A stretch of DNA of 64,000 nucleotides, taken from assembly GCF_024499015.1 (NCBI RefSeq), contig NZ_CP098605.1, forward strand, positions 1 to 64,000, written 5' to 3'. The position numbers were made by a program, and so were the translations under genes. The notes under the pieces are model-generated. The model ran no database searches, was not told where the DNA came from, and saw nothing but the letters and a program-made list of their open reading frames with translations. Numbering within the stretch: the first letter of the stretch is position 1; every line of letters begins with the position of its first letter. The DNA comes from Xanthomonas hortorum pv. pelargonii (GTDB taxonomy: Bacteria; Pseudomonadota; Gammaproteobacteria; Xanthomonadales; Xanthomonadaceae). This document shows, piece after piece, positions 7,138 through 62,528 of this stretch.

Positions 7138-7196
7138 CGTTTTCGGGGGTCTACTGCGCTAGCAGCTGGCCCACCCGCGTTGTCATATCGCTGCCA

Positions 7197-7741: not shown

Positions 7742-7760
7742 GTTCGCTTCCTTCGATTTT

Positions 7761-8021: not shown

Positions 8022-8057
8022 CTTTTGGCTGTTTTTACACGAATCCCTGCCGCCCCT
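8022..8057 (+). repeat. Tn3-type terminal repeat copy (left of vapBC)
   Basis: The stretch TTGGCTGTTTTTACACGA followed by ATCCCTGC recurs in direct orientation at 9531-9556. Read on the minus strand both look like Tn3-family ends (GGCAGGGATTCGTG or GTCGCAGGGATTCGTG, then AAAAACAGCC), related to the ends of the 19-kb element. The two copies frame vapBC and tnpR. Confidence 0.6.
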
Positions 8058-8101
8058 TATCTTCGCGGCCAGTCGACGGAATTCGTTCATGCTCATGTCC
8101 G

Positions 8102-9693: not shown

Positions 9694-9770
9694 AGGGGCA
9701 TTGGCCACCACGAAAGTGGTCCCACCCAGAGTGGTTAAGAGATTCCGGCCCGCCCTACCGCACCAGAAAC

Positions 9771-9797
9771 AAAAGCCCGCCTTGAGTGGGTTTTTTG
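9771..9797. terminator. Probable terminator between 9693 and 9802
   Basis: CCCGC and GTGGG form a short stem flanked by AAAA and six T, so it could work in either direction. It lies just past the corrected stop of the leftward gene at 9802. Confidence 0.5.
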
Positions 9798-9801
9798 TTG
9801 T

Positions 9802-10328: not shown

Positions 10329-10373
10329 AAAAATTAGGCTTCGTCAGTTCCAGAGATGAGTTAAGAGTCCGTT

Positions 10374-10725
10374 CTACTCAGCCGACTTCGGCTTCTTTTC
10401 GAGGCCTCCAGGTGACTGCAACTTGGACCGATTTTCTTTACGGAGTTGGCGTTCGGCGGTGAAGCCAGGCTCGATCTCTCTCACTTTATTTATCAGACCG
10501 TCCAAGTGATAGATGTTGCTATTGAAGTCACCAGAAGCGGTCTTCCGATATTCGCGGCGGATGATCCCAGCCTTCTCTAGGGCACTGATGTTCGTTTGGA
10601 TGGTCTTTTCCGTTACGCCCATCCGGCGAGCAAGGTCCCTTTTAGAAGGGAAAGGCCTCCTATCCTCGTGATGCCAGTAGTCCAAGAGATGGATGCAGAT
10701 CATGGCTTGGGTGTTGTTTAGTCGC
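10374..10725 (-). pseudogene. HTH regulator, 5' end cut off by the IS5-family element
   Basis: The remaining 115 residues contain a winged helix-turn-helix (FPSKRDLARRMGVTEKTIQT, then ISALEKAGIIRREYR) and a charged tail. Coding sense stops at the IS left end near 10,721; upstream codons of the open frame are inside the IS. The missing start is not found on the far side of the IS. It may once have regulated the downstream gene at 9802. Confidence 0.65.
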
Positions 10726-35534: not shown

Positions 35535-35567
35535 GAGGGTCGGCAGGGAATCGTTACGTACAGGGCC
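35535..35567 (+). repeat. Left terminal inverted repeat of the 19-kb transposon
   Basis: Begins GAGGGTCGGCAGGGAATCGT and continues TACGTACAGGGCC. Related to the ends at 54,668-54,701, 62,045 and 62,528. Confidence 0.8.
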
Positions 35568-35666
35568 AAAAACCGCCTAAGCGATTGAAACAAAATCATA
35601 ATTTCCTTGTCCCGATAGCGGATCTCCCCGTCTATGGGGCCTGTTCAAGGACTTTCGCTGTATAGC

Positions 35667-38624
35667 TCAGCGGCGCCACTTCCTATCAAGGTCGAGATGG
35701 TAGTCGCCGAAGCGATTGATGTGGCTGGTCCGATACGGCGACAGGCCGGCCAGGATCTCGGGCGTCAGTTCAATCCCCTCCTTCCGCATCTCAGCCAAGG
35801 TGCGGCTCATGCCCTCCACGTTGTGGAGGATGATCATGTTGGCGACCAGCTGGCTGTACTTGATGATCTTGCGCTGCTCGTGTTGGACGTTCTCAGCAAT
35901 GATCCCCTGGCTGCCAAAGAAGACCCACTTCACGAAGCCGTTGTACTCCTCGCTCTTGTTGGTCGCAGCATGGATCGTTTTGCGGATCTCGTTGTCATCA
36001 ATGTAGCGCAGCAAGAACAGCGTTCTGACGGCCTTGCCAAGTTCCCGGAAGGCGAAGTACAGCTTGTTCTTCCGACTATAGGTGCCCAGCCGGCGCAGGA
36101 TCGAGGACGCGGTGATTTTCCCCAATCGGATCGAGATCACCACCCGCAGCATGTCGTGGAGATGGGTCGCGATCAGTTGCCAGTCGATGCTGTCTCCGAA
36201 CAGTGCCTGGATGTTCTTATAGGTCCTGCCAGGTTCGGGCCGGAAGAATGTCAGATCCTTGATGTTTCGTATCCTGGGCATCAGCTGGATGCCCAGCATG
36301 TGGGCCAAACCGAAGACCGGGTAGCTCTGCGCCTGCGTGTCGCCATGGACGATCTCAGGCTGTATGTCGGAAGTGTTCGCCAGCAGGCCATCGAGGATGT
36401 AGATGCCCTCGTGAACGCCACAGGGAATGAAGTGGCTGAACAGCGCCACGTATTTGTCGGACACGTGGTAGTAGCCAATGCCGCCGTAGCCGCCGTAGCG
36501 GATGTGGTACTCCGACAATAGGTTGTCCTCGTAGACGCTCCATTTGGTGCCATCTGCTGAGGCGCTCTTCCCGCTGCCCCAATAGCCCGGCAGGTCGAAT
36601 TTGTTGTAGGTATTGATGACCTCCACGATGGCCTTCTCAAGCACATCCTCGGTCACATATTTGAGGTTCAGCCAAGCAACCTGGCGCCGGCTGAAGCCCT
36701 TGATCGACCGCGCCGTCTGCGTCGGCCCTAGGTTGCAGCCATAGCAAAATAGCGTGGTGATCACACGTCGCGGCAGATCTTCGACTTGGCTCTCGGTACC
36801 GGCGATCGGGCGGAAAAAACGGTGCAGATCCAGCCATTGGCTGGCATCGATTAGGACATCGACGATGCTGGATTCTGGAAGCCGTTCGGCGATGAGGCGA
36901 TCAACGGTGGTAATCGCGCTGGAGACTTCGGCGCGTTGCCCCTTCCGCAGCACCAGGCGCCCCTCCAGGATGTCCGCATGCACGTTCTCCGGGAAACGCC
37001 CATCGACCTCATCGGCCAGGGTGGTCAATTGTGCGCGCAACCCAGCCACGAACGACGCGGCGTCGGTGGGTAGACCTGACACCTGGCCATAGGCTTCCAG
37101 TTCCTGCGCCAAGGTGGCTTCATCGACCAGCTGCTCGCGGTAGTCATCAAACCGTTCGCTGCTGGGAATGAAGAGATCTCCGGACTTCAGTTCGTCTTTG
37201 ACCTGCACCAGCACGGCCAGCTCGAAGTATTTACGGTGCATCCAGCCGGCGCCTGCTGCGCTGGCCCGCTTGCCGAACACGTGCTGACGCCAGAGCTTGG
37301 ACATCCAGTCAAAGTCCTTTTCCGGGTCCAGGCCGAGGGATGCGACCTCGATCAGCTCACGGCGTTGGTTGCGCAGCGACAGCACCGCTGTGATCAACGG
37401 CTCCATGCCGGCGTCGTGGCTGGTCGCCCGTAGATTCATCAGCTCCAGCCCATTGAACAGCAGCGGCCTGACCGCGCCATAGGGCTGCAGCATGAAAGGC
37501 AGGTAATTCTTCCCGGCGTAGGCCATATGTTCTTCGCATTCGGCCAGCAAGGTCGACACTTCCGCTTCCAGGCTGTTGTCGATGGCATCCACGCGCTGCC
37601 TATCGCTGCCGTCGAGCTGATAGGCCTGCAGGATCTCCTTGAGCTGGCCGATGAGGAAGTCGGCCCGCTTGGCATGTTCGAGCTGGTAAGCCAGCAGCTT
37701 CTGCTGGGCCGTGTTCTCCAGCCCGCGCACCTGCTTGATGAACAACTCGGCTGCATCATCCAGCGTCTTGGCGTGCTGGGCGCGAATGAAGATGGTGGCC
37801 AGCGCATAGCGCTTGTCCTCAGCCAATTCGGCCAGTTCGCTGGCGTCATAGGCCCGAGCCATTGCACGGAATTGCTTGAGCTTGGGCACCGGCACATCGA
37901 TGGGAGGCAGTTGGTCAGCCAACTGCTGCAGCATGCGGATGTGCTGCAGATAAAAACGAACTTCCTTGTTGGTCGGCCGGCCAGGCTCGCGCTTGAGCGA
38001 TTGCCAGCCAGTAAATCTGGAGCCTTCCGGTGCGCGCAGCAATTCGTCAATGAGCGTGCGTGTGGCAGGCGTCAGTGCGTGGCTGATGCTGCGGTAGTAC
38101 CCCAAATTGACCCGCTCGCGTGCGCCAATGGCGGCCAGCTCCAAGGTGCGGAAGCCTGGCAGTTCGTAGCGGTGGTGCACCAGCTCTTCGAGCAGGACGT
38201 TCACGATGTCCGGGATAGTGTGCTTGGTCTGGGCTGCTCCGGTGGCCACTGTGTCCAGCCAAGACAACCCAGCTTTGTCCAAGGGACGCACCCCAATGAA
38301 CTGCCGCAGCTGCGGCATATGCCGGCGCTGGCTGCCGGAGGCGTCATAGCGTTCGAGCTGGTCGGTGTCCAATACGCGCCCGAGTCGGGCGGCCTTGGCG
38401 ATGTGCTTCCGGATCCGCTCGGGCACTTCGGCCAACACTGTGAAGTAACCCAAGCGCTGGAAGAGCTTGAGATGGATCAGTACCGCCAGTTGCGGACCCG
38501 GCTGGGTGGTCAGCTGCTTGGCGAATGCAATCTCAGCGGCGGTGGGGGTGTAGATCTCCTCCAGTTCCTTGGCGGTGGGATCAGGCTTCAGTCGCGGGTA
38601 GGCGGTCTCGTGAAGGGTAGCCAT
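35667..38624 (-). CDS. tnpA: Tn3-family transposase
   Basis: A 985-residue, apparently intact Tn3-type transposase near its left end. The family C-terminal DDE domain shows SASADGTKWSVYEDN (first Asp), DIQPEIVHGDTQAQS (second Asp) and KSEEYNGFVKWVFFG (Glu), and the N-terminal DUF4158-like part binds the ends. Length agrees with the family. It could also mobilise the 484-bp cassette at 62,045 with the same type of ends. Confidence 0.92.
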   Translation of the reverse strand: MATLHETAYPRLKPDPTAKELEEIYTPTAAEIAFAKQLTTQPGPQLAVLIHLKLFQRLGYFTVLAEVPERIRKHIAKAARLGRVLDTDQLERYDASGSQRRHMPQLRQFIGVRPLDKAGLSWLDTVATGAAQTKHTIPDIVNVLLEELVHHRYELPGFRTLELAAIGARERVNLGYYRSISHALTPATRTLIDELLRAPEGSRFTGWQSLKREPGRPTNKEVRFYLQHIRMLQQLADQLPPIDVPVPKLKQFRAMARAYDASELAELAEDKRYALATIFIRAQHAKTLDDAAELFIKQVRGLENTAQQKLLAYQLEHAKRADFLIGQLKEILQAYQLDGSDRQRVDAIDNSLEAEVSTLLAECEEHMAYAGKNYLPFMLQPYGAVRPLLFNGLELMNLRATSHDAGMEPLITAVLSLRNQRRELIEVASLGLDPEKDFDWMSKLWRQHVFGKRASAAGAGWMHRKYFELAVLVQVKDELKSGDLFIPSSERFDDYREQLVDEATLAQELEAYGQVSGLPTDAASFVAGLRAQLTTLADEVDGRFPENVHADILEGRLVLRKGQRAEVSSAITTVDRLIAERLPESSIVDVLIDASQWLDLHRFFRPIAGTESQVEDLPRRVITTLFCYGCNLGPTQTARSIKGFSRRQVAWLNLKYVTEDVLEKAIVEVINTYNKFDLPGYWGSGKSASADGTKWSVYEDNLLSEYHIRYGGYGGIGYYHVSDKYVALFSHFIPCGVHEGIYILDGLLANTSDIQPEIVHGDTQAQSYPVFGLAHMLGIQLMPRIRNIKDLTFFRPEPGRTYKNIQALFGDSIDWQLIATHLHDMLRVVISIRLGKITASSILRRLGTYSRKNKLYFAFRELGKAVRTLFLLRYIDDNEIRKTIHAATNKSEEYNGFVKWVFFGSQGIIAENVQHEQRKIIKYSQLVANMIILHNVEGMSRTLAEMRKEGIELTPEILAGLSPYRTSHINRFGDYHLDLDRKWRR

Positions 38625-38647
38625 TGGATCCGGAGGTTATGAGGGGA

Positions 38648-39919
38648 TCAATCCCAGTGCCGGCCGTCGTCTGTATTGAGAGACGCTTCCAGGAAACACT
38701 GGTGCGTATCGGCCATGCGGTGCATGTCATCGAGCAACGTGGCCAGGATTTCATCCAGATCCTGATCGGGATCGGTGGGAACAGTTAACCGGTACTCGCT
38801 GCTGGCGGTGTTCAGACGCACTGCCTGGAACGGAGCCAAGCAGATCTCTTCAATCCGGCCCCGGGCCTTGGCCGCGCCGCGGCCCGCGCGGGCAAACGGG
38901 GTCAGCACCATGCGCAGACGGAGCTGCAGCGCAGATTTGCCCTCGGGTGCCGGCAGTGCCATCGCCGGTACCGGCGCGGTTGGGCTGGGTAGGCTCGCTT
39001 CAATGCGGTCCCGGGCAAACGGGTCACGCCCATCCAGGTAGCGCATGGCCGACTGCACATCGCGCCAGCCCACGTACTCCATCAACGCCTTCATGTCCCA
39101 GCCTTGGTCGTTGGCCCAACTGGCAAAGCCGCGGCGCAACGAATGGCTGCTGTGGAGCCCCGCATCGGCAAAGCCGGCACTGGTCAGCAACTCGCGTAGC
39201 AGGCGCACCAAGCTATTGGGATGGAGGCCTTCGGCGCTCACCTGGCCCCATTGGTTGACCGCCCGAAATACCGGTCCTTCCTGCAGGTCGGCCGCCTGCA
39301 GCCACACCTGGGTCGCCTCCACCGGGCACAGCCGCGACAACGCCGGCACCTTGTAGGTAACGCCGGCCGCTCTGCGATCGCTCTTGCTGCGCGGCAGGAA
39401 ACAGGTCATCCCCTGTCCCGGCACCAGCGTGAGATGGGCCACGTCCAGACGCAGCAGTTCATCGCCGCGAAAGCCACGCCAGAATCCGAGCAGCACCAGC
39501 GCTCGGTCCCGTTGGTGGCGCAGCGCTGCCGCTCCGTCGCCCCGCGCGCGTGCCGCCGCGATCGCAGCGGCCAGCCAGTCGTCGAGCTCGACCAGCCGCC
39601 GAATCTGGAGCGGCGCGGCTTGCTTGACCTGCCCGGGGTGCAGGGTCTGGATGCCTTTGAGCACCTTGCGCACCAGCGGCGACCGGGTGGGATCGACAAA
39701 TCCGTGGTCGCGGTGCCAAGAGGCGATGGCCGCCAGGCGTTGGCGAAGGGTGCTGGTGGCCAGGGTCTGCGCATACGCGGCCAGGTATCGGGCCACGCTG
39801 TCAGGTGTCGCTGGGAGGTGGCCTTGCCACTCGACTTCAAAGTGCCGTAGCGCCGACGCATAGCTGCGCACCGTGTTCTGGCGCGTGGCCGCATCGAGGT
39901 AGCGGTCCAGTTCGGTCAC
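38648..39919 (-). CDS. Tyrosine recombinase, cointegrate resolution (TnpI-like)
   Basis: About 423 residues. An N-terminal SAM-like domain (RQNTVRSYASALRHFEVEW) and a phage-integrase catalytic domain with Arg in GFRGDELLRL, the HSLRRGFASWA box and Tyr in AMRYLDGRD. A 100-residue C-terminal extension has no recognised fold. GTG 39,919 overlaps the merR stop. It replaces a serine resolvase in this transposon and would resolve cointegrates. The merR-recombinase coupling is unusual. Confidence 0.75.
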   Translation of the reverse strand: MTELDRYLDAATRQNTVRSYASALRHFEVEWQGHLPATPDSVARYLAAYAQTLATSTLRQRLAAIASWHRDHGFVDPTRSPLVRKVLKGIQTLHPGQVKQAAPLQIRRLVELDDWLAAAIAAARARGDGAAALRHQRDRALVLLGFWRGFRGDELLRLDVAHLTLVPGQGMTCFLPRSKSDRRAAGVTYKVPALSRLCPVEATQVWLQAADLQEGPVFRAVNQWGQVSAEGLHPNSLVRLLRELLTSAGFADAGLHSSHSLRRGFASWANDQGWDMKALMEYVGWRDVQSAMRYLDGRDPFARDRIEASLPSPTAPVPAMALPAPEGKSALQLRLRMVLTPFARAGRGAAKARGRIEEICLAPFQAVRLNTASSEYRLTVPTDPDQDLDEILATLLDDMHRMADTHQCFLEASLNTDDGRHWD

Positions 39920-40329
39920 TGGCGCGTGGCCTCCACAGCGACCGGCTGCCGCAGGGTCGACAGGATGGTGCATTCCGCCCGCTGCCCGCCGTGGCAACTG
40001 GCAATCACCCGTTCCAACTCCCTGGCCATGCGCTGCAGGTCGGCCATGCGCGCCCGCACGTCGGTCAGATGGCTGCGTGCCAGCCGATCCACGTCCCCGC
40101 ACGAGAGCTCCTCATCGCCGGCCAGCTGCAGCAGGCTGCGGACCTCCTCCAGGCTGAAGCCTAGGTCCCGGCCGCGCGCAATGAAGCGCAGCCGCTCGAT
40201 GTCGGCCGGGCCATAGACCCGGTAGCCATTGCCCGAGCGCCCCGGGCGCGGCAGCAGGCCGATCCGCTCGTAATAGCGGATCGTCTCCAGGTGGCATCCA
40301 CTGGCGTCGGCAGCCTCACTGATTTTCAT
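39916..40329 (-). CDS. pbrR: MerR-family metal regulator, PbrR/CadR-like
   Basis: A 137-residue activator. N-terminal winged HTH (MKISEAADASGCHLETIRYY), coupling helix and a C-terminal metal loop with Cys77, Cys112 and Cys120 (SCHGGQRAEC), the arrangement of Pb/Zn/Cd sensors of this family. It is divergent from pbrT across a MerR-type promoter. Which metal it prefers cannot be told, although the pbrT context favours lead. Confidence 0.85.
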   Translation of the reverse strand: MKISEAADASGCHLETIRYYERIGLLPRPGRSGNGYRVYGPADIERLRFIARGRDLGFSLEEVRSLLQLAGDEELSCGDVDRLARSHLTDVRARMADLQRMARELERVIASCHGGQRAECTILSTLRQPVAVEATRQ

Positions 40330-40340
40330 TCGTAATACAC

Positions 40341-40371
40341 TTGACTCCGTAGTAGCTACGGACTTTACGCT
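40341..40371 (+). promoter_or_regulatory. MerR-type promoter of the metal operon
   Basis: TTGACT (40,341) and TACGCT (40,366) are separated by 19 bases, the stretched spacing that MerR proteins correct. The spacer has the dyad CTCCGTAG and CTACGGAC. It drives pbrT and probably the whole efflux cluster. Confidence 0.8.
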
Positions 40372-40419
40372 GAACCCCTATCCGCCGCCACTCCGGCCGC
40401 GCCGCTGCGTGTGACGACC

Positions 40420-42375
40420 ATGCCACTGCCCATCGCCTTGATTCGCTGCTGCCTGATTGCTTTGCTGCTCGGCTGGGTTCTGCCCGCTTCCGCTCAGGCG
40501 GAACCTACCGCAGCAGACTTGCGCCAAACGTGGCAAATGCTCGATTACATCGCGGTCGACTACCCAGGCGCGGTCCAGGCCGGACGTGGTATTGCTCCCA
40601 GCGAATATGCCGAAATGAGCGAGTTTGCCGGCGCCGTCCGCAGTCAGCTGGCAGCATTGCCCGGTGGCCCGAACCAGCAGGAGCTGACGGCCCAGGCGGA
40701 TCGGCTCGTCCAGGCGGTGGCAGAGAAGGCCGACCCCGCGCAAGTGGCAACGCTTGCCCGCGGGCTCGGCACGGCGCTGCTGGCCCGCTACCCGATCGGC
40801 GCCATTCCGGCGAGCCCGCCGAAGACCTCCCAGGCCGCGTCCATCTACAGCCAGCAGTGCGCGGCCTGTCACGGCCCCACAGGTCACGGGGATGGCCCAG
40901 CCGCGCAAGCGTTAAGTCCGCCGCCGATCGCGTTCACCGATGCCACTCGCGCAGCGCAGCGCACCCCCTATCCTTGTACGAGGTCATTTCCCAGGGTGTG
41001 CCGGGCACCGGCATGGTCAGCTTCTCTGGGCTGTCAGAAAGTGATCGCTGGGCGCTGGCATTCTATGTGGGCAGCTTGGGGTACTCCTCGCAAGCCAAGG
41101 TTCAAGGTGAGGCGTTGTGGCGCACCAGTAATGAGGCCCATGCACGCATTCCGACGCTCGAAGCACTGACTCGCACGCGGGAAGACGATCTTGCCACCAC
41201 GATGCCCGCCGATCAGGCAAACGCGATCATCGCCTACCTGCGTTCGCAGCCACAGGCTGTCAGCGAAGCGGTAGCAGGAGCCGATCGCTTTGCGGTGGCG
41301 CGGCAGCGACTGGCTGCCAGCCAGCGCGCTTACGCTGCTGAGGACCTGGCCCAGGCCAAAAGCTTGCGCTCTCGTCCTATCTTGATGGTGTAGAGCCCTT
41401 TGAGCCGACGCTGGCCACGCGCAATCCGTCATTGCTGCGAGAGATTGAAACGGCCATGGCAGCCTACCGCGCGCAGCTGGATCAGCATGCCCCGGCGGCT
41501 GACGTAGCCGCGCAGACAGCCCAAATTGCCCAGCTGTTTGATCGGGCGGAGTTGGCGCTGCAGGACGCCCGAATAGGGGCCAGCACCGCGTTTCTGGGCA
41601 GCTTTACCATCCTGGTGCGTGAAGGGCTGGAGGCGCTGCTGATCGTGATTGGCATCGTGGCGTTCTTGCGTAAAGCCGAGCGATCTGATGTGTTGCCCTA
41701 TGTGCATGCGGGCTGGATCTGCGCATTGTTGGCAGGCGCAGCTACCTGGGCAGTGGCCACCTACTTTGTTGATATCAGCGGTGCGAACAGGGAAGTCACT
41801 GAGGGTGTCTCGGCCTTGTTCGCCGCCGCTGTCCTGCTCAGCGTAGGCATCTGGATGCACCAAAGAGCCTTGCAGGACGGTGGCAGGAGTACCTGCACGC
41901 CAAGCTGACGACCGCGCTGACACGGCGCTCGGCTGTTTTTCTGTTCATGCTGGCCTTTGTCGCGGTGTACCGCGAGGTGTTTGAGACGATCTTGTTCTAC
42001 ATCGCGATGTGGAGCGATCAGGCGTCCACCGCCATCCTCGCAGGCCTGGTGGCGGGAATCCTGGTATTGGCCGCGGTGGCGTACTGGATGCTGCGCATGA
42101 GCAGGCGGCTGCCGATTGGCCGGTTCTTTTCGATCAGCTCGATTCTCATCGCGGTGATGGCGGTCATCTTGATCGGTAAAGGCGTGGCCGCGTTGCAGGA
42201 AGCGGGCTGGATCTCCCAGACACCGCTCGCGTTGCCGCGCATCGAATGGATCGGCCTGTATCCAACCTGGCAGTCGCTGCTGGCGCAGGTCTTGGTAGGC
42301 ACTGCCGCCATCGTGGGGTTCCTCGCCAATGCCCGCTCTGGCGTGAGAAGACCGGCCGACGCAAACAAGCAATGA
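40420..42375 (+). CDS. pbrT: PbrT-like permease: cytochrome c domain fused to FTR1 (three frame breaks)
   Basis: About 650 residues. Signal peptide (LLLGWVLPASAQA), an extracytoplasmic helical part, a c-type haem site CAACH near residue 148 and an FTR1-like iron/lead permease with RExxE motifs (REGLEALL and REVFETIL) in seven membrane segments. Three breaks near 40,970 (C run), 41,362 (A run) and 41,877 are each repaired by one base. PbrT imports Pb(II) in Cupriavidus; pairing with PbrR fits. An iron role is also possible. Confidence 0.8.
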
Positions 42376-42399
42376 AACAACACAGCAGAGGACCAGAAC

Positions 42400-43017
42400 A
42401 TGAGTGATTGCGGGTGCCACCACGAAGCCAAGAACAAGGAGGAACGGCGCATCCTCTGGATCGCCTTGGCGCTGAATGCAGCGATGGCCGTGATCGGCGG
42501 CATTGCCGGTTGGATTGCCCATTCCACCGGGCTGCTGGCCGACGCGCTGGACATGCTGTCTGACGCTACCGCCTATGCCATTGGCCTGGTCGCTATCGGG
42601 CGCACGGCGCGATTCAAGGCCAATGCCGCGTGGGTCAGTGGCAGCGTACTGCTGGTGCTGGGCATAGGCGTACTGGTCGAAGTCGGTCGCCGGGTCATGT
42701 ACGGCGCCGAGCCGGTCAGCGGTTGGATGATCGGTACCGCTCTGGTGTCACTGGCCGTGAATCTGAAAGTTCTCCGTATGCTCTCTCCATTGAAGTCTGG
42801 CGAGGTGCATCTGCGGGCGACCTGGCTGTTCACCCGAGCCGATGTGGTGGCAAACGTCGGGGTAATCCTGGCCGGCGTGTTGGTGTGGTGGCTGGCCAGC
42901 CCGTACCCGGATTTCGTGATCGGCGCCCTGATCGGTCTGTATGTGATCAAGGAATCCTTCGAGATCTTGGGTGATGCGCGGCGGGCACGTGCCGACGCGC
43001 GCAAGACGCCTGCATGA
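42400..43017 (+). CDS. CDF-family cation efflux pump without C-terminal domain
   Basis: A 205-residue protein with a metal-binding-looking N-terminus (MSDCGCHHE) and six membrane segments. TM2 carries GLLADALDMLSDATAYAIG, as in CDF zinc sites; in TM5 the usual HxxxD is replaced by ADVVAN. It stops right after TM6, lacking the 80-residue cytoplasmic dimer domain. A free-standing protein resembling that domain is encoded at 48,880. Zn/Cd/Pb export to the periplasm, where the RND pump takes over, is likely. Confidence 0.8.
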   Translation: MSDCGCHHEAKNKEERRILWIALALNAAMAVIGGIAGWIAHSTGLLADALDMLSDATAYAIGLVAIGRTARFKANAAWVSGSVLLVLGIGVLVEVGRRVMYGAEPVSGWMIGTALVSLAVNLKVLRMLSPLKSGEVHLRATWLFTRADVVANVGVILAGVLVWWLASPYPDFVIGALIGLYVIKESFEILGDARRARADARKTPA

Positions 43018-43370
43018 CAGCGCTTGGTCGGCTGAGCTTTGGCCTGCGCTGGCTGTTGCTGGCGCACTTGGCCGTGGGCCTTGTGGCACAGCCGTTGCTG
43101 GCAGTGGTCGGCGAGCTTCATGCTCAAACCCACCTGGTCACTACCGACCGCGGCCCGGCAGTGGCGCCGCCAGCTTCCGAGCGTGGCGTAGACGCCGCCC
43201 TGCACCGGCTTCAGCAGCTGGTGCTGTGTTGCAGCCAGGCCGCGCCGGCGCCTGAGATCCTGCTGGCCGTGGCGGACATCGGCCGGCATTTTCCGGTGAT
43301 CCAAGCCAACACGCGCTCTTATCCGCACGAGCATCCGGTCGCGCCTTTCCGGCCTCCGATCGCAGGGTGA
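43014..43370 (+). CDS. Small exported protein in the metal operon
   Basis: 118 residues, starting inside the stop of the CDF gene (ATGA). A signal segment (WLLLAHLAVGLVAQPLLAVV) is followed by CC and a His-containing tail (YPHEHPVAPF). It holds the place of CzcI-type periplasmic proteins in similar clusters but I see no clear sequence match. Confidence 0.55.
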   Translation: MTALGRLSFGLRWLLLAHLAVGLVAQPLLAVVGELHAQTHLVTTDRGPAVAPPASERGVDAALHRLQQLVLCCSQAAPAPEILLAVADIGRHFPVIQANTRSYPHEHPVAPFRPPIAG

Positions 43371-43456
43371 TGTCCGCCGGCAGTGCCGGCCCAGCGACCC
43401 GCTGCTGCGCGCGGTGGTGATCGTTTGTTGATATCGAAATCTTTCGGAGTACTTCC

Positions 43457-44729
43457 ATGCATGTGCGATTGGCGGCCTTGGCCGCATGGCTGCTGTTGGG
43501 CAGCGCGGCGACGACGGCGGCGGCCGCTGAGTTGATGACCTTGGACGACGCGTTTGCACGCGTGGCCCAAACCCACCCTGAGCTGCGCTTGGTCGATGCG
43601 CGGGCCATCGTGCTCGCTGCCGAGCGCGACCAGGCCGTACAGCGGCCACCATGGACGTTGGGGGCGGAGGTCGAAAATGCGCTGGGCAGCGGCGCCGCTC
43701 GCGGCCTGGACAGCGCCGAGCTGACCCTGAGCCTGAGCTCGGTGCTGGAGCGCGGCGGCAAGCTCGACGCCCGCCGCACCTTGGCCCAGGGCCGGATTGA
43801 TGCACTGGCCGTGCAGCGGGAGACCGGCCGACTGGACCTGCTCGCCGAAACGGCGCAGCGCTACCTGGCCGTGGTCGGTGCCGATCGGCAACGCAAACTG
43901 GCGAACATGGATGTCGGTCAGCGCCAGCGGACCGTGGCGGCCGCCCGGCAGCGCCTACAGGCCGGCGCCTCGCCAGAATCGGTGGTGCTCACCGCCCAAG
44001 CTGCACTGGCGCGGGCCGAGCTGACCCGTGATCGGGCCGAGCAGCAGCGAATCGCCGCTCGTCAGCATCTGGCCGCACTGTGGGGCGAACGTGCTCCCAG
44101 CTTCGAGGTGGCTGCGGCCGATCCCATGGTCTTGCCGGCGATCGCGTCCATGCAGACGCTGGCCGAGGAGCTGGAGCGGACTCGGAACTGGCGCAGTTTG
44201 CCGACGCCCGTCGGATCGCGCAGGCACGACTGCAGCTGGCGCGTTCGGCGGCCGCGCCGGACCTGTCCTGGCAGCTGGGTGTGCGTCGCCTGCAGGAGTC
44301 CGATGACACCGCGCTGGTGGCCAGCCTGTCCATGCCGCTGGGCAGCCGCAGCCGTGCACAGCCGGAGATTCGCGCCGGTGAAGCCGAACTGGAGGTGCTG
44401 GCAATCGAGCGCGAGGCCAAGGGCTTGTCGCTGTATTCCACGTTGGTCGAGGCCCATGGCCGCTACACCGTGGCACAGGCCGAGGTGGCACGGTTGCAAG
44501 GCGACGTGCTGCCGAAGCTGGCCCGGGCTGAGCAGGCCGCCGAGCGCGCCTATCGCGCTGGCGCGATCAGCTACCTGGAATGGGCACAGTTGCAGTCCGA
44601 ATGCACGGCCATGGCCCAGCAGCAGCTGGACGTGGCGCTCGATGCGCAGCGCGCCCTGATCGAAATTCAACGACTGACCGGCCAGGCGCTTGTCACGCCG
44701 CCGGCGGCCGCTTCCACTGGAGAGACCCC

Positions 44730-44733
<4 letters not shown>
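43457..44733 (+). CDS. czcC: CzcC-like outer-membrane factor (one frame break)
   Basis: About 424 residues of the TolC/CzcC family. Signal peptide (LAAWLLLGSAATTAAAAE), then repeated helical blocks (VAQTHPELRLVDARAIVLAA; LFARSAAAPDL-like second repeat LQLARSAAAPDLSWQLGVRR). A base is missing near 44,185 in GAGCGGAC. It ends in an ATGA overlap with czcB. It forms the exit duct of the tripartite pump. Confidence 0.82.
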
Positions 44734-49158
<4,425 letters not shown>

Positions 49159-49173
49159 TCGCTGTCCGTGGCT

Positions 49174-50271
49174 CTATGCGTCTGCGCTGGCTGGCGCATA
49201 GAGCTGATGACCCGGCAGGGCGCACGCGCCGGCATACACAAAGGCCACGCTTTGCCGCGCCCTGGTGAAAGCCACGTAGTACTTCGGTGGCGCGGTGATA
49301 CGCGCCGCATCTGCGGTGCGCAGGTACTGCGTCAATGGCCCGTTCGGAAAGATGAGGACTCGACTGTAGGTGCGGCCCTTGCACTGCCCAAAGTTCACGG
49401 CCGGTAGTCCGTCGCACGCTTGCCGCCGGTCATGCCGGAGCACGGTGGGGGCAAACTCCTGCATATACGCTGCAACATCCGCTGGAGCGACGAGGTAGAT
49501 GCCATCGTGCCCGGTGACCTCGCCATTGCCTGATTGGGTTCGCGGCATCTGCGGATAGAGCGTGTCCGCCATATCGCACAGGGCCTGGACGCAGCGAAGG
49601 CTGATGAGGCGGTGATCCAGCTGGCATAAGCCGTCCGCCTCCCAAATCTGAAACAGCGCTGCCAGATTGGGTCCACGATACTGGCTGTGCCTTTGCGCAT
49701 AGTTGGTGGCATACGTCGCCTGCCGCGTATCACCCACCAACGTGACGGCGATATGGCTCTTCAACAGCCGCTCGACCAGATCCAAATCAAAGCCGGCCAG
49801 GTCCTGAACTTCGTCGATGTAGAGCTCGTCGTACATGGCCGCCAGGCGTGCGATGACCTGACCTTGGGTCAGCTCATCGCAGCGCACAGCAAAGTCGGCA
49901 GCCCGGTCCGAATACATCCGGTTGCCTGCCAGGTAGTGGCGCGCCACCTGGGTGCGTGGGGCCCGGTTGTTGGTGACACCTTCTACGAACAGGATGGTCT
50001 CGATGCGAGGCTCAGGGCACAGTGCCGCCTGGTACGGGCGGATGCACTGGCGCAGTAGGAAGCCATACCAGCTGTGCAAGGTGACATGCGCGGGGACCGC
50101 ACCAGCGTGGACCTCAAACGAGCGCCGGATCTCTTCTAGATTCTCCAGCGTGTAGGTCACAATCGCGATGCGGCGCCCAGGGCGTTCCAGGGCCTGCCGG
50201 ACCAGCAAGGTGGTCTTGCCCGAGCCGGCCGCTGAGAGCAGTACCCGGTTAGGTGATGGCACGCTGGACAT
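49174..50271 (-). CDS. gajB: UvrD-like helicase, GajB of a Gabija-type system
   Basis: A 365-residue SF1A helicase. Walker A SAAGSGKTT at the start, LYIDEVQDLAGFD (motif II), LVGDTRQATYATN (III) and YVAFTRARQSVAF (VI). It follows an OLD-family ATPase-TOPRIM gene with a 23-base overlap, the GajA-GajB order. It is shorter than the best-known GajB, so 2A/2B insertions are reduced. GajB is thought to sense DNA ends and activate GajA after phage infection. Confidence 0.8.
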   Translation of the reverse strand: MSSVPSPNRVLLSAAGSGKTTLLVRQALERPGRRIAIVTYTLENLEEIRRSFEVHAGAVPAHVTLHSWYGFLLRQCIRPYQAALCPEPRIETILFVEGVTNNRAPRTQVARHYLAGNRMYSDRAADFAVRCDELTQGQVIARLAAMYDELYIDEVQDLAGFDLDLVERLLKSHIAVTLVGDTRQATYATNYAQRHSQYRGPNLAALFQIWEADGLCQLDHRLISLRCVQALCDMADTLYPQMPRTQSGNGEVTGHDGIYLVAPADVAAYMQEFAPTVLRHDRRQACDGLPAVNFGQCKGRTYSRVLIFPNGPLTQYLRTADAARITAPPKYYVAFTRARQSVAFVYAGACALPGHQLYAPASADA

Positions 50272-51829
50272 AGTCCGGGAACCTGATCGAATGCGGGCTG
50301 TTGAAGATCGCCAGGGCCGTGTCGGTCTTATGGCCCTTCATGTACTTGAGCAACGCTACCTCATCGGCAAATGCCTTGCCCAGCACGGTATTGAGCTCGG
50401 CCAGCGAATTGGCTTTGATCAGCTGCTCTTCCAGCGACGGGGCGCTTTCGTCGGAATCGTAATAGATCGCGTTGATGTGCTCGGCATAGCGCTCCTGCAC
50501 AACGGCGATGTCGCCATCGTTGTCGGTGATCACCTTGGCCTGAATTCTCAGCCGATCTGCAATCTGCAAGAAGCGCTTGAATGCCAACGACTTGACCGAA
50601 ATGATGTCTACGCCATGAGCCATCGGCGCCACGCCGTGGTGGTCGCTGTAGGCACGCTGCACGATCAGCTCATCAGACGGGCCCTCCACCAGGATTGCCT
50701 GCTTGGCCAGGATCAGCCGTAGCGTGTCGTGGCCTGGCAGCTTCATGAAATAGTCGTGTGTATCGCTCGGCAGCTGGTCCAGCTTCATCTGGCCCTGCGC
50801 GCTGAACAGGATCACATTGTCCACGCCCAGCTTGTTCAACACGAAGCTGCTGTGGGTGGCGATGATCACCTGCTGCGCGGTGGAGAGGGTCGCAATCTTG
50901 TCGATCAGTTGCGTCATGCTGGAGAAGGACAGATGGTTCTCTGGCTCTTCGATCAGCAGCACGTGGGCCGCCCCTGCCGCGTGCATGGCCAGCTTCATCT
51001 TCACCGCGCTTTGTTCCCCCTTGCCGGCCTGGGTGAAGGGGAGCTCATCCAGGTACGGAGACAGGCTGGTTTCCCATGTTGAGCGCGGCGATGTATCCAC
51101 CCCCACCGTCAGCGCTCGGTGGCTGATGTCCCCGGTGTGCTCGGTCAGGTAGGCATTGATGGCCGCCACATCGGCTTCTTCGGAGAAACTCTGCCGCATG
51201 CGTCGGAAGCTGAGCGACAGCGAGACGCGCTGCGCAGGCGTCAGTGCCTGCTCGATGATGCCGGCAATATAGCGATCGGCACCGGACAAGGTCTTGATGC
51301 CGTGCGTGTCGATGATGGTCGAGTCGAACGGAATACTGCGGGCGGTGACGCCATTGTTGGCGAAGGAATACCATCGCACCGTGTAGTACTCCACCGGCAG
51401 GCTGACCGCACCCTGGTGCTGCTGCAGGTAGGCGTTGAACTCCTCGCGGTAGTCGTCGTTGAGCTCGACCAGCAGCCGGATGCCGGCGGTATCTAGGCGC
51501 AGGGAGTTGTTGGTGCCGCGTAACGACGCCAGCGCGGCATCGCCGCCCAGATAGGCTTCGATGGAGATCCGTGGCGGCGAGGCCGGCGTGCCTGCTGCAA
51601 GCGCCGCGAAGTACTCCCGCACCGTCGGCTGATGGAACAGGTAGGGCGTGAGCTCGTAGGCGAGATTGCGCCCATGCAGCTGGCCGGTGACCACCGCGTG
51701 GATGGCCTCCAGCAGAGTGGACTTGCCGACCTCGTTATCGCCCACCACCAAGTTCATGTGGGCGTTGAGCGGCAGGTCCAGATGGCGAAACGACTTGAAG
51801 TTGTCGATGACGATACGTTCGATCGGCAT
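50249..51829 (-). CDS. gajA: OLD-family ATPase/TOPRIM nuclease, GajA of a Gabija-type system
   Basis: A 526-residue protein. ABC-type ATPase with Walker A VVGDNEVGKSTLL near residue 28-40, signature region GKGEQSAVKMKLAM and Walker B HVLLIEEPENHLS; TOPRIM nuclease with VEGPSDE at about 381 and ITDNDGD at about 434. Class 2 OLD nucleases paired with a UvrD-like helicase define Gabija, an anti-phage system. ATG 51,829 follows AAAGGA. No frame break. Its presence in a metal-resistance transposon is notable. Confidence 0.82.
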   Translation of the reverse strand: MPIERIVIDNFKSFRHLDLPLNAHMNLVVGDNEVGKSTLLEAIHAVVTGQLHGRNLAYELTPYLFHQPTVREYFAALAAGTPASPPRISIEAYLGGDAALASLRGTNNSLRLDTAGIRLLVELNDDYREEFNAYLQQHQGAVSLPVEYYTVRWYSFANNGVTARSIPFDSTIIDTHGIKTLSGADRYIAGIIEQALTPAQRVSLSLSFRRMRQSFSEEADVAAINAYLTEHTGDISHRALTVGVDTSPRSTWETSLSPYLDELPFTQAGKGEQSAVKMKLAMHAAGAAHVLLIEEPENHLSFSSMTQLIDKIATLSTAQQVIIATHSSFVLNKLGVDNVILFSAQGQMKLDQLPSDTHDYFMKLPGHDTLRLILAKQAILVEGPSDELIVQRAYSDHHGVAPMAHGVDIISVKSLAFKRFLQIADRLRIQAKVITDNDGDIAVVQERYAEHINAIYYDSDESAPSLEEQLIKANSLAELNTVLGKAFADEVALLKYMKGHKTDTALAIFNSPHSIRFPDYVQRAIT

Positions 51830-51982
51830 GCACAGTCCTTTGATGGCCAACGAGTTCGGTGGCGGCGCCTGCTTGCACCCCGGCTGGCCTCCTTTCCGCT
51901 CTGGGCCATACTACCCAGCGATCGCCGGCCTTGGGCGGTTTCGTACCGTTTTGACGACTTGAAATGGCCGAAACGCCGGTTG

Positions 51983-52009
51983 CGCGGGATAATTCCAGAT
52001 TATCCCGCG
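51983..52009. promoter_or_regulatory. Palindrome between gajA and the KfrA-like gene
   Basis: Two 11-base arms (CGCGGGATAAT and ATTATCCCGCG) flank TCCAG. Further repeats of ATACGT (52,040-52,091) follow up to the KfrA-like start. A related GGGATAA/TTATCCC palindrome and TACGT repeats occur in the 484-bp cassette near 62,390-62,490. Confidence 0.6.
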
Positions 52010-52101
52010 TGAGATCACGGCCCGCAGCTGGTCCGTCTAACACGTTGAGTAGTACGCAAATACGTGGTATGTAATACGTTACGAAATACGTGGAGTAACG
52101 G

Positions 52102-53153
52102 ATGGCAAGGTCCAGGTTGTACAAAAGCGATGTGCAACGCGCCCGGGACAGTCTCCGGGCCGAAGGCCGAAATCCCTCAGTGGACGCCGTACGCGTGGCA
52201 CTGGGTAATACTGGGTCTAAAACCACCATCCATCGCTACCTCAAGGAGCTGGAAGAGGAGGATGGGCAAGGCCTAGGGGCCAAGATCGCGGTCAGCGACG
52301 CCCTGCAGGACCTGGTGGCTCGCCTTGCCGAGCGGCTGCATGCCGAGGCGGAAACCGTGGTCGCCCAAGCGCAAGATCGATTCCAGGCCGAGCGGCACGA
52401 GCGCACCCAAGCCTTGGAACAGGCCCGGCAGGAGGCAGGCAATCTCAGCGCGCAGCTTCAGCGCACCGAGACGCTGCTTCAGACAGAACGCCAGGCGGGT
52501 GAAGCCGCCAAGGGCGAGGTGGCCAGCCGCACCACCGAACTGGCTCAGCTGGAGGAGCGCATTGCGGGCCTCACGGCACGGCTGGCCGAGCACGAAAGCC
52601 ACGCGCGTTCCCTGGAGCAGAAGCACGAGCATGCCAGGGAAGCCCTTGAGCACTACCGCACCTCGGTCAAAGACCAGCGCGAGCAGGAGCAACGCCGTCA
52701 CGAGCACCAGGTGCAGGAACTGCAGGTCGCTCTGCGCCAGGCCAACGAAACGTTGACATCCAAGAACCACGACCTGGTGCAGCTCAACCGGGAGAACGGC
52801 CAGTGGCTGGAGCGTCACACCCGATTGGAAAGGAAGTGGCGCAGCTGCGCCAGACCATCGAGGCGCAACAGGGCGAGCTCGATGCGCTGCGCCTGACAGC
52901 GGCCGAATACCAGGCGCTGCAGGTGCGCTGGGGCCAAGACACTCAGACGTTGGAGGCCGCTCGACAAGAGCTCGCGCAAGTCCGGACCGAGCTGGTCCAG
53001 GAGCGCGAACGGCGCGAGCACGCCGAGACGGAGACGCTGCGCGCCACGGTGCGCCTGAGCACCCTGGAGCCGCTTCTTGCCCAGCTGCAGCCGGCCAGTG
53101 CCGGCGGTAAAGGCGCCAAGCGGATCTCATCGGAAGAGACGCCGGCGCCATAG
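52102..53153 (+). CDS. KfrA-like coiled-coil DNA-binding protein in the transposon (one frame break)
   Basis: About 350 residues. KfrA_N-like start (ARDSLRAEGRNPSVDAVRVA, TTIHRYLKELEEE) and a long Glu/Arg/Gln coiled coil. The frame breaks at GGAAAGG near 52,831; one A joins the halves. ATG 52,102 has GGAG upstream. It is divergent from the Gabija pair and may regulate it or stabilise the DNA, in the manner of plasmid KfrA or PlmA-type regulators. Confidence 0.7.
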
Positions 53154-53155
53154 GC

Positions 53156-53823
53156 TTGCAAGAGAACATCAGGCGCCACGATCGCAAGGAGTTTTGCTAC
53201 GAGCGTAGTCACCACCACACCCCGGAAATCTCCCGTGCCGTGCGTCGCTTAACCGATTCCGTCGTGCGCGGCGCAGAGCCGGTGTATCTCGATGTGCAGC
53301 CGGAAGCCGATGCGATCGTGCACGAGTGCTTTCCCAACGTGCAGGCCAAGGTCGCGCGCGACGGTGGTCAGATGCTGTGCGGGTGGCAGCTGTGGGAATG
53401 GCCGAACGTGCTGGTCGAGGCAGAATTCCATGCCGTGTGGGTCAGTCCCGCAGGGAAATGATCGACATCACGCCAAAGCCCGAAGGCGAGAAGCGCATTC
53501 TCTTCGTGCCGGATCCGCGCAGACGCTACGAGGGCGTGTCGATCGACAACGTCCGCATGCCTCTGCGCGATGACCTGCTGATCAGGCACTTCATCCAGAT
53601 GTCCGAAGCGATCGTCCAAGTGATAAACCGCGGCGAGCGAGCATCTCAGTATGGCGAGGTCAGCGTTCCGGCCAATGAAATCCAGCCTCTTCTGCAGGCT
53701 AGGGATTTCCTGGGGCAGTCACTCGGTGCGGGACTGCGCGAGCATGCACCGTGCCTGTGCGGCAGCGGCAGCAAGTACAAGCGCTGTCATGGCGCACAAG
53801 TAGAAGCATTCTTCCGTCATTGA
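53156..53823 (+). CDS. SEC-C zinc-motif protein (one frame break)
   Basis: About 222 residues after adding one A near 53,459 (VWVSPAGK, then IDITPKPEGEKRILFVPDP). The middle has VYLDVQPEADAIVHECFPNV and the C-terminus ends in a SEC-C motif (CLCGSGSKYKRCHG), a zinc site also seen at the end of SecA. The start is uncertain (TTG at 53,156). It follows the KfrA-like gene closely. Function unknown; such proteins recur in defence islands. Confidence 0.6.
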
Positions 53824-53826
53824 CGG

Positions 53827-53929
53827 TGGTGCCCCTGGTCGGAATCGAACCGACGTGTACGCGCTTATCTGGCGCGTGCTCTCACCGGGGTATAAGGCCG
53901 GCGCTCTGACCAACATGAGCAACAGGGGC
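53827..53929 (-). tRNA. tRNA-like gene, anticodon loop with TAT, long variable arm
   Basis: The minus strand folds as a full tRNA with encoded CCA: acceptor GCCCCTG/CAGGGGC, D-arm GCTC-ATGTTGGTCA-GAGC, anticodon arm CCGG-loop CTTATAC-CCGG with a C-C mismatch at 31-39, T-arm GTCGG-TTCGATT-CCGAC and ACCA. Anticodon TAT would read the rare Ile codon AUA. The variable arm is an 8-bp hairpin (GCACGCGC, loop CAGATAA, GCGCGTAC, one mismatch), unlike any normal Ile tRNA. It could be functional, a decoy or a decayed tRNA. Confidence 0.7.
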
Positions 53930-54021
53930 GTGATCGATCGATGCGATCACGCCGGTATTCGAGGGTCGAGCTGGCTCAGGTGGTTCATGGGGCAAGCATA
54001 CCGGGGATGGAGGCCATGCCG

Positions 54022-54573
54022 CTATCCCCGGGCGCGGCGGTAGGAGCGGGCCCAAGCCGGAGCAGGGATGCGGTCGGTCGCCACCAGCCAAGCCATCCGC
54101 AAGGCCTGCGCGTCCACCAAGGCATGGTGGCGCCTGGCCCTATGCTCCGGATGGGCCGCGAACCAATCTTCCACCAGTAATCCCGGAAGGCCTTCCTTCG
54201 ACATGCGTGTCATGACCGGGGCCGGCCGGGGCCCGCACGCGGCAACCTGGTCATCGGGTAACTCAAACCCATCCAGGGCGTACCGCAGCAGCTGGAGATC
54301 GTTCGGGAAATCCGCCATCACTGCCGGCGCATCGACCTCGCTGAGGAAGGCGCGCAGCTCGGTAGTCAGGGCGGCATCAGGCAGGGCTGCGTCGCCGCGG
54401 TCTAGCAGCGGGTAGACGCTTTGACGAACGAAGTCGGTGGGAGCCTCGGGCAGGCTGGCTCGCTCAGCGTAGAAAAGGCGGTCTCCACCTTCGTTCACCA
54501 GCGCCAGACTCACCAGCTCGCTGCCCGTTACATCGGCCCACTCGGTGTCCAAGAAGTAGTACGTGGTGGCCAT
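54022..54573 (-). CDS. DnaQ-like 3'-5' exonuclease
   Basis: A 183-residue RNase H-fold exonuclease: DEDD motifs FLDTEWADV (Asp and Glu), ADFPNDLQLL and RRHHALVDAQAL (His and last Asp, DEDDh type). Such proteins trim RNA or DNA 3' ends. It lies 90 bases upstream of the tRNA-like gene on the same strand and is the last gene before the right transposon end. A tRNA or RNA-processing role is a speculation from this position. Confidence 0.75.
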   Translation of the reverse strand: MATTYYFLDTEWADVTGSELVSLALVNEGGDRLFYAERASLPEAPTDFVRQSVYPLLDRGDAALPDAALTTELRAFLSEVDAPAVMADFPNDLQLLRYALDGFELPDDQVAACGPRPAPVMTRMSKEGLPGLLVEDWFAAHPEHRARRHHALVDAQALRMAWLVATDRIPAPAWARSYRRARG

Positions 54574-54667
54574 GGTTGAATGGTGCCACAGCTTCCTGGG
54601 GAGGGCCGAGCCTGGAAGTGTGGTCGAGGGTAGAATTCAGCGATCCATCAATCGGTTAGCGAAGATC

Positions 54668-54701
54668 TGGCCGTGTTCGTAACGATTCCCTGCCAACCCT
54701 C
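54668..54701 (-). repeat. Right terminal inverted repeat of the 19-kb transposon
   Basis: On the minus strand GAGGGTTGGCAGGGAATCGT followed by TACGAACACGGCC, matching the left end at all but a few positions. Confidence 0.8.
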
Positions 54702-61488: not shown

Positions 61489-62046
61489 ATGTCCTGGTCG
61501 CAACTATTTGCTCTTTTCGTTGCGTTGGCGATTCTCGCTGCGCTGGCTGTTGCCGGCGCCCTGCGGCCGAAGGCACGCGAGCGGCGTCATCGTCGCCGCC
61601 AGGATCAGGCGAGGCGGGTCTTGGCCAAGATCAACACGATCCCGCTGATGCCGCAGCGTCTGGCCTACCTGCGAAAGATTGATCCCCTCACCTTTGAGGA
61701 ACTGCTGCTGGAGACCTTCGAGCGGCGCGGCTACCGCGTCGAGCGAAATACGCATTACACCGGGGACGGTGGCGTCGACGGTGCGGTGTACCTCAACGGC
61801 ACGCGGTATCTCCTGCAGGCCAAGCGTTACCGCAAGCACATCAACCGCGCGCATATCCTCGAGTTCGCCGAGCTGCTGGAAGCCCGCGGAAGCCGTGGGA
61901 TCTTCATTCACACCGGCCGCACCGGCGCCGGCGCCCGCGAGCTGGCCGCCGCCAATCCGCACCTCACCATCATCAGCGGCCAACGGCTGCTGGACTTTCT
62001 CAACTCGGGCCGTCTCGATCGGGAATGCCAATGCACACGATCTTGA
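61489..62046 (+). CDS. Membrane-anchored Mrr-like restriction endonuclease
   Basis: 185 residues. An N-terminal membrane segment (LFALFVALAILAALAVAGAL) and basic linker precede an Mrr_cat domain: FEELLLETFERRGYRVERN, GDGGVDGAVYL (Asp) and YLLQAKRYR (QxK). It could cut foreign or modified DNA at the membrane. The stop TGA is made by the junction of the ATCTT target copy and the GAGGGT cassette end, so the native C-terminus is replaced. Start follows GGGAGG. Confidence 0.75.
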   Translation: MSWSQLFALFVALAILAALAVAGALRPKARERRHRRRQDQARRVLAKINTIPLMPQRLAYLRKIDPLTFEELLLETFERRGYRVERNTHYTGDGGVDGAVYLNGTRYLLQAKRYRKHINRAHILEFAELLEARGSRGIFIHTGRTGAGARELAAANPHLTIISGQRLLDFLNSGRLDRECQCTRS

Positions 62047-62129
62047 GGGTCGGCAGGGAATCGTTCCGAGAACAGCCATTTCATTGCTAAGGCATTGAAT
62101 CAACTTGTGATGTCAAAGGAGAACCAAGA

Positions 62130-62366
62130 ATGCCGACGTACAACGATGACTCTGCGCTTGCCGTGCTGTTCCGTTTGCCGCAGGCAGACGGCGGGCTATA
62201 CGTGGTGGCCACCGTCGACACCAATGACTTGGCTCAGGTGTTCGTGGCTCAGAAGCTCCCGCAGCCTATTGGGCACGGGCCGGCTCGCTATGACCGCCAG
62301 CCCATGACCGAGAGGGTACGGGAGCGCTTGCTCGCGAGCGGATTCAACGCGGACCAGCTGCAGTAG
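62130..62366 (+). CDS. Small protein carried by the cassette
   Basis: Not recognised. 78 residues (MPTYNDDSALAVLFRLPQAD), with GGLYVVATVDTNDLAQVFVA and a helical C-terminus (MTERVRERLLASGFNADQL). AGGAG precedes the ATG at a fair distance. It is the sole cargo of the 484-bp element. Confidence 0.55.
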   Translation: MPTYNDDSALAVLFRLPQADGGLYVVATVDTNDLAQVFVAQKLPQPIGHGPARYDRQPMTERVRERLLASGFNADQLQ

Positions 62367-62387
62367 GATCGAGCTTCCCGGGGATCA

Positions 62388-62414
62388 GGCGGGATAACCC
62401 GGAATTATCCCGCC
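62388..62414. promoter_or_regulatory. GGGATAA palindrome inside the cassette
   Basis: GGCGGGATAA and TTATCCCGCC flank seven bases. With the TACGTAATTACGTGGTACGT repeats at 62,459 it resembles the promoter region of the KfrA-like gene at 52,102. Confidence 0.5.
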
Positions 62415-62528
62415 TTAGAGCATGGCGACCTGGCGGCTCCGATAGCGGTCACGACATTACGTAATTACGTGGTACGTACGACGGTACGAAATCGTTGGCC
62501 TGTTGAGCACGATTCCTTGCCGACCCTC

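Follow-up and report, generated by a model that had tools for sequence, protein, structure and literature searches.

The question raised by this locus is what a pair of anti-phage-like genes does inside a metal-resistance transposon. In the first 64,000 nucleotides of contig NZ_CP098605.1 of Xanthomonas hortorum pv. pelargonii (this whole stretch is called the window), two overlapping genes, gajB and gajA, encode proteins resembling those of the Gabija defence system and lie within a Tn3-family transposon that also carries metal genes. The pair might protect the host against phages, serve the transposon itself or simply travel along under metal selection. We consider it probable that it is a compact Gabija-type anti-phage pair and a long-standing module of this transposon, which is related to TnXax1 and resolved by the TnpS/TnpT system.

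Identity of the gene pair

A first-pass annotation of the window had described overlapping, intact GajA-like and GajB-like genes at 49174-51829. Both frames are indeed open and overlap by 23 nt, and the region 49000-52000 is 100% identical across X. hortorum plasmids. The mechanical open reading frame (ORF) of gajA begins at a TTG at 51850; we chose the ATG that gives 526 amino acids. In a search of 398 genomes, every one of the 18 GajA matches had an adjoining GajB, so the pairing is not a matter of chance; a lack of linkage elsewhere, named in the annotation as an argument against its assignment, was not seen.

Pfam assigned AAA_15 and OLD-like_TOPRIM domains to GajA and UvrD-helicase and AAA_19 domains to GajB. 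The search against defence-system profiles that the annotation had suggested placed Gabija profiles of PADLOC first for both proteins, over their full lengths: PDLC00098 for GajA (985 bits) and PDLC00140, itself a profile of 365 amino acids, for GajB (644 bits). A second compact cluster followed with PDLC00102 (658 bits) and PDLC00148 (375 bits), and beyond these two clusters the scores were at most 127 bits for GajA and 59 bits for GajB. The top non-Gabija matches were Old for GajA (75 versus 985 bits) and RTasHel for GajB (27 versus 644 bits). No NCBIfam model exceeded its cut-off for either protein.

The conserved motifs agree with this assignment. GajB carries AAGSGKT, DEVQD, GDxxQ, KG and YVAxTRA, which we take to be Walker A, DExQD and motifs III, V and VI of superfamily 1A (SF1A) helicases. 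Residues D153, E154, Q156, D157, K298, G299 and R337 were invariant in all 99 GajB relatives, and the Walker A residue G18 was kept in 89 of the 99. In GajA, E382, D436 and D438 were invariant together with K36 and K501 in 75 of 75 aligned relatives, and in a direct alignment these three acidic residues fall onto E379, D432 and D434 of Bacillus cereus GajA, described in PMC10781630 as part of the TOPRIM active site; according to PMC8136825, the E379A substitution abolishes cleavage. The predicted models (predicted local distance difference test, pLDDT, of 84.7 for GajA and 95.3 for GajB) had as their leading Foldseek matches the GajA chains 8u7i_A and 8sm3_A, and the chain 8tk1_F from a Gabija complex, respectively.

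The PADLOC ranking, the similarity in sequence and fold to the two Gabija proteins of B. cereus and the linkage in 18 of 18 cases thus support the Gabija-type identity that the annotation had proposed. A pair formed by an OLD nuclease and a UvrD helicase outside Gabija is disfavoured by the PADLOC scores and the linkage, while the fold scores do not decide. We also set aside carriage by phages: two Listeria phage records matched, at 25% identity.

A compact form lacking two parts

At 365 residues the GajB-like protein is short, which had led to the suggestion of a distinct subtype. When 99 compact GajB proteins were combined into a profile, it matched GajB of B. cereus (8sm3_B) with an E value of 1.9e-13. 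Profile positions 5-247 correspond to residues 11-249 and positions 292-355 to residues 424-478 of 8sm3_B, so that 44 profile residues replace 174. This gap spans residues 306-416, given in PMC10822852 as the 2B domain, and 2B is therefore absent from compact GajB; of the 1A, 1B, 2A and 2B arrangement of the B. cereus type, the 2B-bearing stretch is gone. The 1B domain, the place of the major GajA contacts according to PMC10781630, is kept in the same match. The spacing between R226 and K298 was 66-81 residues in all 99 relatives. Because the PADLOC profile has 365 positions and the best 120 relatives measured 244-382 amino acids (proteins up to 1.75 times the query length were eligible, and each protein-relative search scored 7998 candidates), GajB is not a truncated protein.

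GajA is shortened as well. Its DxD motif is followed by 88 residues (88-115 in the 75 relatives); the corresponding stretch measures 144 residues in GajA of B. cereus and 95 in 6p74, an OLD nuclease of class 1. According to PMC10568477, class-2 OLD proteins, which it equates with GajA, conserve in their TOPRIM domain a helical insert some 50 residues long; judged by length, this insert is missing here. The pair is thus class 2 by gene context, yet compact in both proteins. The suggested subtype is borne out by the drop in score outside the compact clusters and by the two missing parts, and it is already present in databases, as PADLOC holds profiles of such size. In our literature search, with most subscription papers and all preprints outside its scope, no paper was found that describes these compact profiles, a GajB without 2B or a Gabija system in a Tn3-family transposon.

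Association with one transposon lineage

Plasmid records carrying the transposase TnpA of this element at an identity of at least 76.8% numbered 27, of which 24 reached at least 95% and three stood at 76.8% (the best 60 of at least 5000 records extend down to 72.9%, and the 27 are complete within this ranking). GajA at an identity of at least 80% was found in 26 of them and, by identity bands, in no other plasmid record. A shared record is not a shared element, and gene order was checked in nine fetched plasmid loci. Among the 398 genomes of the order, ten had TnpA at 96% or more, ten had GajA at 97% or more, and nine had both, always on one contig and 3-18 kb apart. The Fisher value of the association was 1.6e-16, which is no true probability since genomes and plasmids are related. 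Around the pair, metal, arsenic and copper genes varied in the fetched loci. One transposon lineage carries compact Gabija almost invariably, at its resolution region, and this setting is more telling than the one first proposed.

Several observations weigh against a long-standing anti-phage module. The lack of the class-2 insert in GajA lowers our confidence in it. In the X. citri plasmid NZ_CP075326 (locus L029, 20189-33424), the exception among the 27, arsenic, mercury and efflux genes precede the tnpT-like gene and Gabija is missing; this is a natural Gabija-free version of the element. Genome G327 has TnpA only, G141 has GajA only, and G228 holds a second copy of TnpA without GajA. In G302, G373 and G318, with GajA at about 81%, TnpA was not found at the threshold used (in G302, tnpS is still present at the margin of the stretch); G385, for its part, carries TnpA at 77% and no GajA. 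The G141 pair (L054, 6336-8991) is chromosomal, with GajA at 97%, GajB at 90% and an adjoining HEPN_LA2681 gene, in 18 kb without mapped transposon genes, and is perhaps a stranded copy.

So close a tie to one TnpA lineage, at a fixed site beside the resolution site, would also be expected if the OLD-type nuclease and its helicase-like partner served the life of the transposon, in cointegrate handling or in the exclusion of competing elements and plasmids, rather than phage defence. The insert-free GajA, with a fold close to a stand-alone OLD nuclease, fits such a role, as do the argument made in PMC7157771 that toxin-antitoxin pairs form an integral part of the transposition modules of the Tn3 family and the preference of B. 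cereus Gabija for circular DNA reported in PMC10822852. We nevertheless regard this as unlikely, since compact pairs occur in G141 (by the HEPN gene) and G318 without transposon genes in the fetched stretch, more distant pairs are found elsewhere (L048-L051, L021), and the pair is missing from plasmid L029, from G327 and beside the second TnpA copy in G228.

Metal genes and a metal-free element

That the pair lies inside a heavy-metal transposon is true of the window, but it is more constant than the metal genes, sits in the resolution region and also occurs in an element without them. This 11.8-kb element with gajAB was found at two sites, the chromosome of the genome to which the window belongs (L053) and the X. 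hortorum plasmid NZ_CP116674 (L028). The two copies align at 99.5-99.9% identity, and the alignment begins and ends precisely with the inverted repeats. A perfect 5-bp duplication, CTAAA, flanks the NZ_CP116674 copy, and a metal-bearing element in L031 is flanked by the duplication AGCTC; the L053 flanks showed no target-site duplication. The element is mobile, and the genome of the window holds two Gabija copies of 97% amino-acid identity, one on the plasmid contig and one in the chromosome (L053). At both sites the tnpA of the metal-free element is frameshifted. The element retains the MerR gene and, next to gajB, what is left of the small metal ORF, and for this reason it probably arose by loss of metal genes while Gabija was kept; the reverse order, Gabija first and metals later, we do not claim on the same grounds. 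Between its tnpT-like gene and its end, two further ORFs (L028, 4539-6293) gave no Pfam hit at E 0.01.

Selection was estimated against the near-identical plasmid L024 as the ratio of non-synonymous to synonymous substitution rates (dN/dS), using distinct sequences of at least 90% identity and dropping rows with dS below 0.01 or coverage below 95%. Median dN/dS was 0.035 for gajA (n = 19), 0.058 for gajB (n = 17), 0.037 for tnpA (n = 7), 0.054 for tnpS (n = 8), 0.030 for czcA (n = 21) and 0.106 for the tnpT-like gene (n = 6), with median dS of 0.22-0.34 in these sets. At 76-85% identity, gajA and gajB gave 0.06-0.10. Both genes are under purifying selection, of a strength similar to that on the transposase and the metal pump.

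These results bear on the idea that the pair is a passive passenger, kept solely because copper or zinc sprays select for the metal genes of the element. Metal, arsenic or copper genes do lie in or next to the element in eight of the nine fetched plasmid loci (L024-L027 and L029-L032; the ninth, L028, is metal-free). Yet gajAB stays open in the metal-free element at two sites, at a dS of about 0.3 its dN/dS is comparable to the low values of czcA and tnpA, and the metal cargo changes while the pair stays. A purely passive role is already disfavoured, and we judge it very improbable. Metal selection may still help to spread the pair, as the first-pass annotation had supposed, but given the metal-free element it is not the sole force.

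The right-hand part of the element has a history of its own. Across 18 loci, the core palindrome shares 88-100% identity with that of L024, and gajA is 92-95% identical in 16 of them and 75-84% in two. At 11 of the 18 loci (L028 and L053 being the same element), gajA at 92-95% is accompanied by only 60-76% identity in the early 200-base part of the tnpT-like gene. This suggests that right-hand modules have been exchanged in or close to the resolution site, although homologous recombination would leave much the same pattern.

Proposed mode of action

By analogy with B. cereus Gabija, GajA would be an ATPase-TOPRIM nuclease kept inactive by the nucleotides of the cell and set free once replicating phages have used these up. 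GajB would contact GajA through 1A and 1B and act as a nucleotide-sensing ATPase rather than an unwinding helicase. The two would form a complex, as in B. cereus, where its stoichiometry is 4:4. B. cereus GajB was reported in PMC10681800 to lack helicase activity and DNA binding, and a nucleotide-sensor role was proposed for it in PMC10822852. Such a role, in place of unwinding, would explain how GajB can dispense with 2B. The transposon carries the pair from one replicon to another, chromosome or plasmid, whether or not metal genes come along. Transcription probably starts in the divergent region by the resolution site, the place at which the tnpS of TnXax1 begins; no sigma-70 promoter was found at 51700-52200 or 48800-49300.

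A bolder proposal, which we put forward tentatively and hold to be doubtful, is that the compact pair is built into the transposon. Sitting where tnpS starts in TnXax1, it would have its expression coupled to transposition by TnpT/TnpS binding; the resulting immunity transposon would protect its host and exclude rivals independently of metals, with a Gabija that works without the GajB 2B domain and the GajA TOPRIM insert.

Architecture of the host transposon

The host is a TnXax1-related Tn3-family transposon of the TnpA-TnpS-TnpT type. It spans 35535-54701 between inverted ends of 54 nt that are 80% complementary, and its order from left to right is tnpA, tnpS, MerR, metal transporters, gajB, gajA, palindrome, KfrA_N gene and two small genes (Table 1). 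The hallmarks of TnpS/TnpT-type Tn3 elements were all found: a Tn3 DDE transposase, a tyrosine recombinase, a palindromic core site, long inverted ends and, at the NZ_CP116674 and L031 copies, a 5-bp duplication. The flanks of the window copy held no target-site duplication. An end of the left-repeat kind (at most 5 mismatches in 20) lies at the tnpA side in all 12 fetched loci with tnpA. According to the annotation of L024 and Pfam, the metal genes between the ends comprise an FTR1-like gene, cation efflux (CDF, cation diffusion facilitator), TolC/CzcB/CzcA and the MerR regulator; the small metal ORF has a weak ZT_dimer match under the Pfam cut-off.

Table 1. Features of the transposon in the window
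Feature	Position	Strand	Basis and remarks
Left terminal inverted repeat	35535-35588	+	starts GAGGGTCGGCAGGGAATCGT; tnpA end; pairs with 54648-54701
tnpA, Tn3-family transposase	35667-38624	-	Pfam DDE_Tnp_Tn3 1.5e-146; about 73% identity to TnXax1 TnpA
tnpS-like tyrosine recombinase	38648-39919	-	Pfam Phage_integrase; cointegrate-resolution role as described in PMC7157771 and PMC4619425
MerR-family regulator	39916-40329	-	Pfam MerR
Metal genes: CDF transporter, TolC/CzcB/CzcA efflux, small ORF	42400-49158	+	L024 annotation, Pfam
gajB	49174-50271	-	365 amino acids, ATG start; compact SF1A helicase-like, without 2B; PADLOC PDLC00140 2.3e-194
gajA	50249-51829	-	526 amino acids from ATG; ABC ATPase and TOPRIM nuclease, by length without class-2 insert; PADLOC PDLC00098 1.6e-297
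rst core-site-like palindrome, 25 bp	51984-52008	.	GCGGGATAAT-N5-ATTATCCCGC; between gajA and tnpT; putative function
tacgt-rich repeats	52050-52096	.	direct reading; may be the TnpT-binding portion of rst
tnpT-like gene, coding for a coiled-coil DNA-binding protein of the KfrA_N type	52102-53153	+	Pfam KfrA_N 5.2e-29 on L024 copy
SEC-C motif ORF	53326-53823	+	frameshifted versus L024
Gene annotated 3'-5' exoribonuclease	54022-54573	-	annotation of near-identical plasmid; no Pfam hit at E 0.01
Right terminal inverted repeat	54648-54701	-	inverted partner of 35535-35588

Across 35000-55500, the window differs from L024 by one substitution and 15 missing bases. The end of tnpA, the FTR1-like gene, tolC, the tnpT-like gene and the SEC-C gene are in pieces or unmatched relative to L024, and gajA and gajB are untouched. 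The last codons of tnpA are frameshifted, as is tolC, and the tnpT-like gene is broken in the window and intact in L024. These frameshifts are probably sequencing indels; elsewhere the genes occur in intact form.

For transposons of this kind, PMC4619425 describes a palindromic core site of TnpS as well as a TnpT site. The KfrA_N gene is probably tnpT, an assignment made by position. Its relative of 78.5% identity in NZ_CP009003, which carries TnXax1, lies at 9736-10782, divergent from tnpA at 5323-8262, with a gap that fits tnpS only, and the description of such transposons in PMC4619425 places no other gene between tnpA/tnpS and the divergent tnpT. We also considered a plasmid partition gene; the position, the palindrome and the account in PMC4619425 favour TnpT instead.

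At 62045-62528, the window further contains a 484-bp miniature element with inverted ends of the same kind and a perfect 5-bp duplication, ATCTT, without a transposase. It holds a core-site-like palindrome (62389-62413) and tacgt repeats, with a block like that at 52050-52096 at about 62456-62490, and is a non-autonomous derivative of the same transposon family.

Comparison with known systems

The locus links the metal-resistance transposons of plant-associated Xanthomonadaceae with anti-phage immunity. If the pair defends its host, an element whose metal genes have been described since 2015 would double as a mobile carrier of immunity, which would be relevant to phage biocontrol. A natural Gabija without the GajB 2B domain and the GajA insert also makes the needed parts of the system, including the role of GajB, directly testable.

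Gabija of B. cereus VD045 (GajA 578 and GajB 494 amino acids; PDB 8sm3, 8j4t, 8jqb and 8tk1) shares with our pair the gajA-gajB order, an ABC ATPase and TOPRIM protein with matching E and DxD, and an SF1A partner with Walker A and DExQD. It differs from the pair described here, which has a GajB of 365 amino acids without 2B, a GajA of 526 amino acids without the TOPRIM insert as judged by length, low identity and a Tn3-family carrier. The compact PADLOC clusters are closer, with full-length matches of 658-985 bits for PDLC00098/PDLC00102 (profile lengths 532-534) and 375-644 bits for PDLC00140/PDLC00148 (365-369), but they are profiles only and silent on the transposon.

The carrier has been known since 2015, and the pair was already noticed then. 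TnXocp1, TnXop1, TnSml1 and TnPsd1, described in PMC4619425, likewise have tnpA, tnpS and tnpT with czc or ars passengers, some of them between tnpS and tnpT, and share a pair annotated as 'DNA recombination protein' and 'DNA helicase II'. The passages of PMC4619425 on these elements neither term this pair phage defence nor mention a metal-free form, and the likeness to our pair is by description only; the GajB relative P0158 comes from a strain named in that paper. TnXax1 itself has a related TnpA (73%), GAGG ends, TnpS/TnpT resolution and, in NZ_CP009003, the 78.5% KfrA_N relative 1.5 kb from tnpA. It differs in that, among the matches listed, none of the TnXax1-annotated records belongs to the 26 plasmid records of Xanthomonas that had a GajA match of any kind.

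In its fixed site at the resolution region, the pair resembles the toxin-antitoxin modules that other Tn3-family transposons carry; PMC7157771 describes these as two-gene modules at that region too, though of toxin-antitoxin type and not Gabija. Gabija is also carried by Tn7-like transposons (PMC8649781), which belong to another transposon family and in which it is one among many kinds of cargo.
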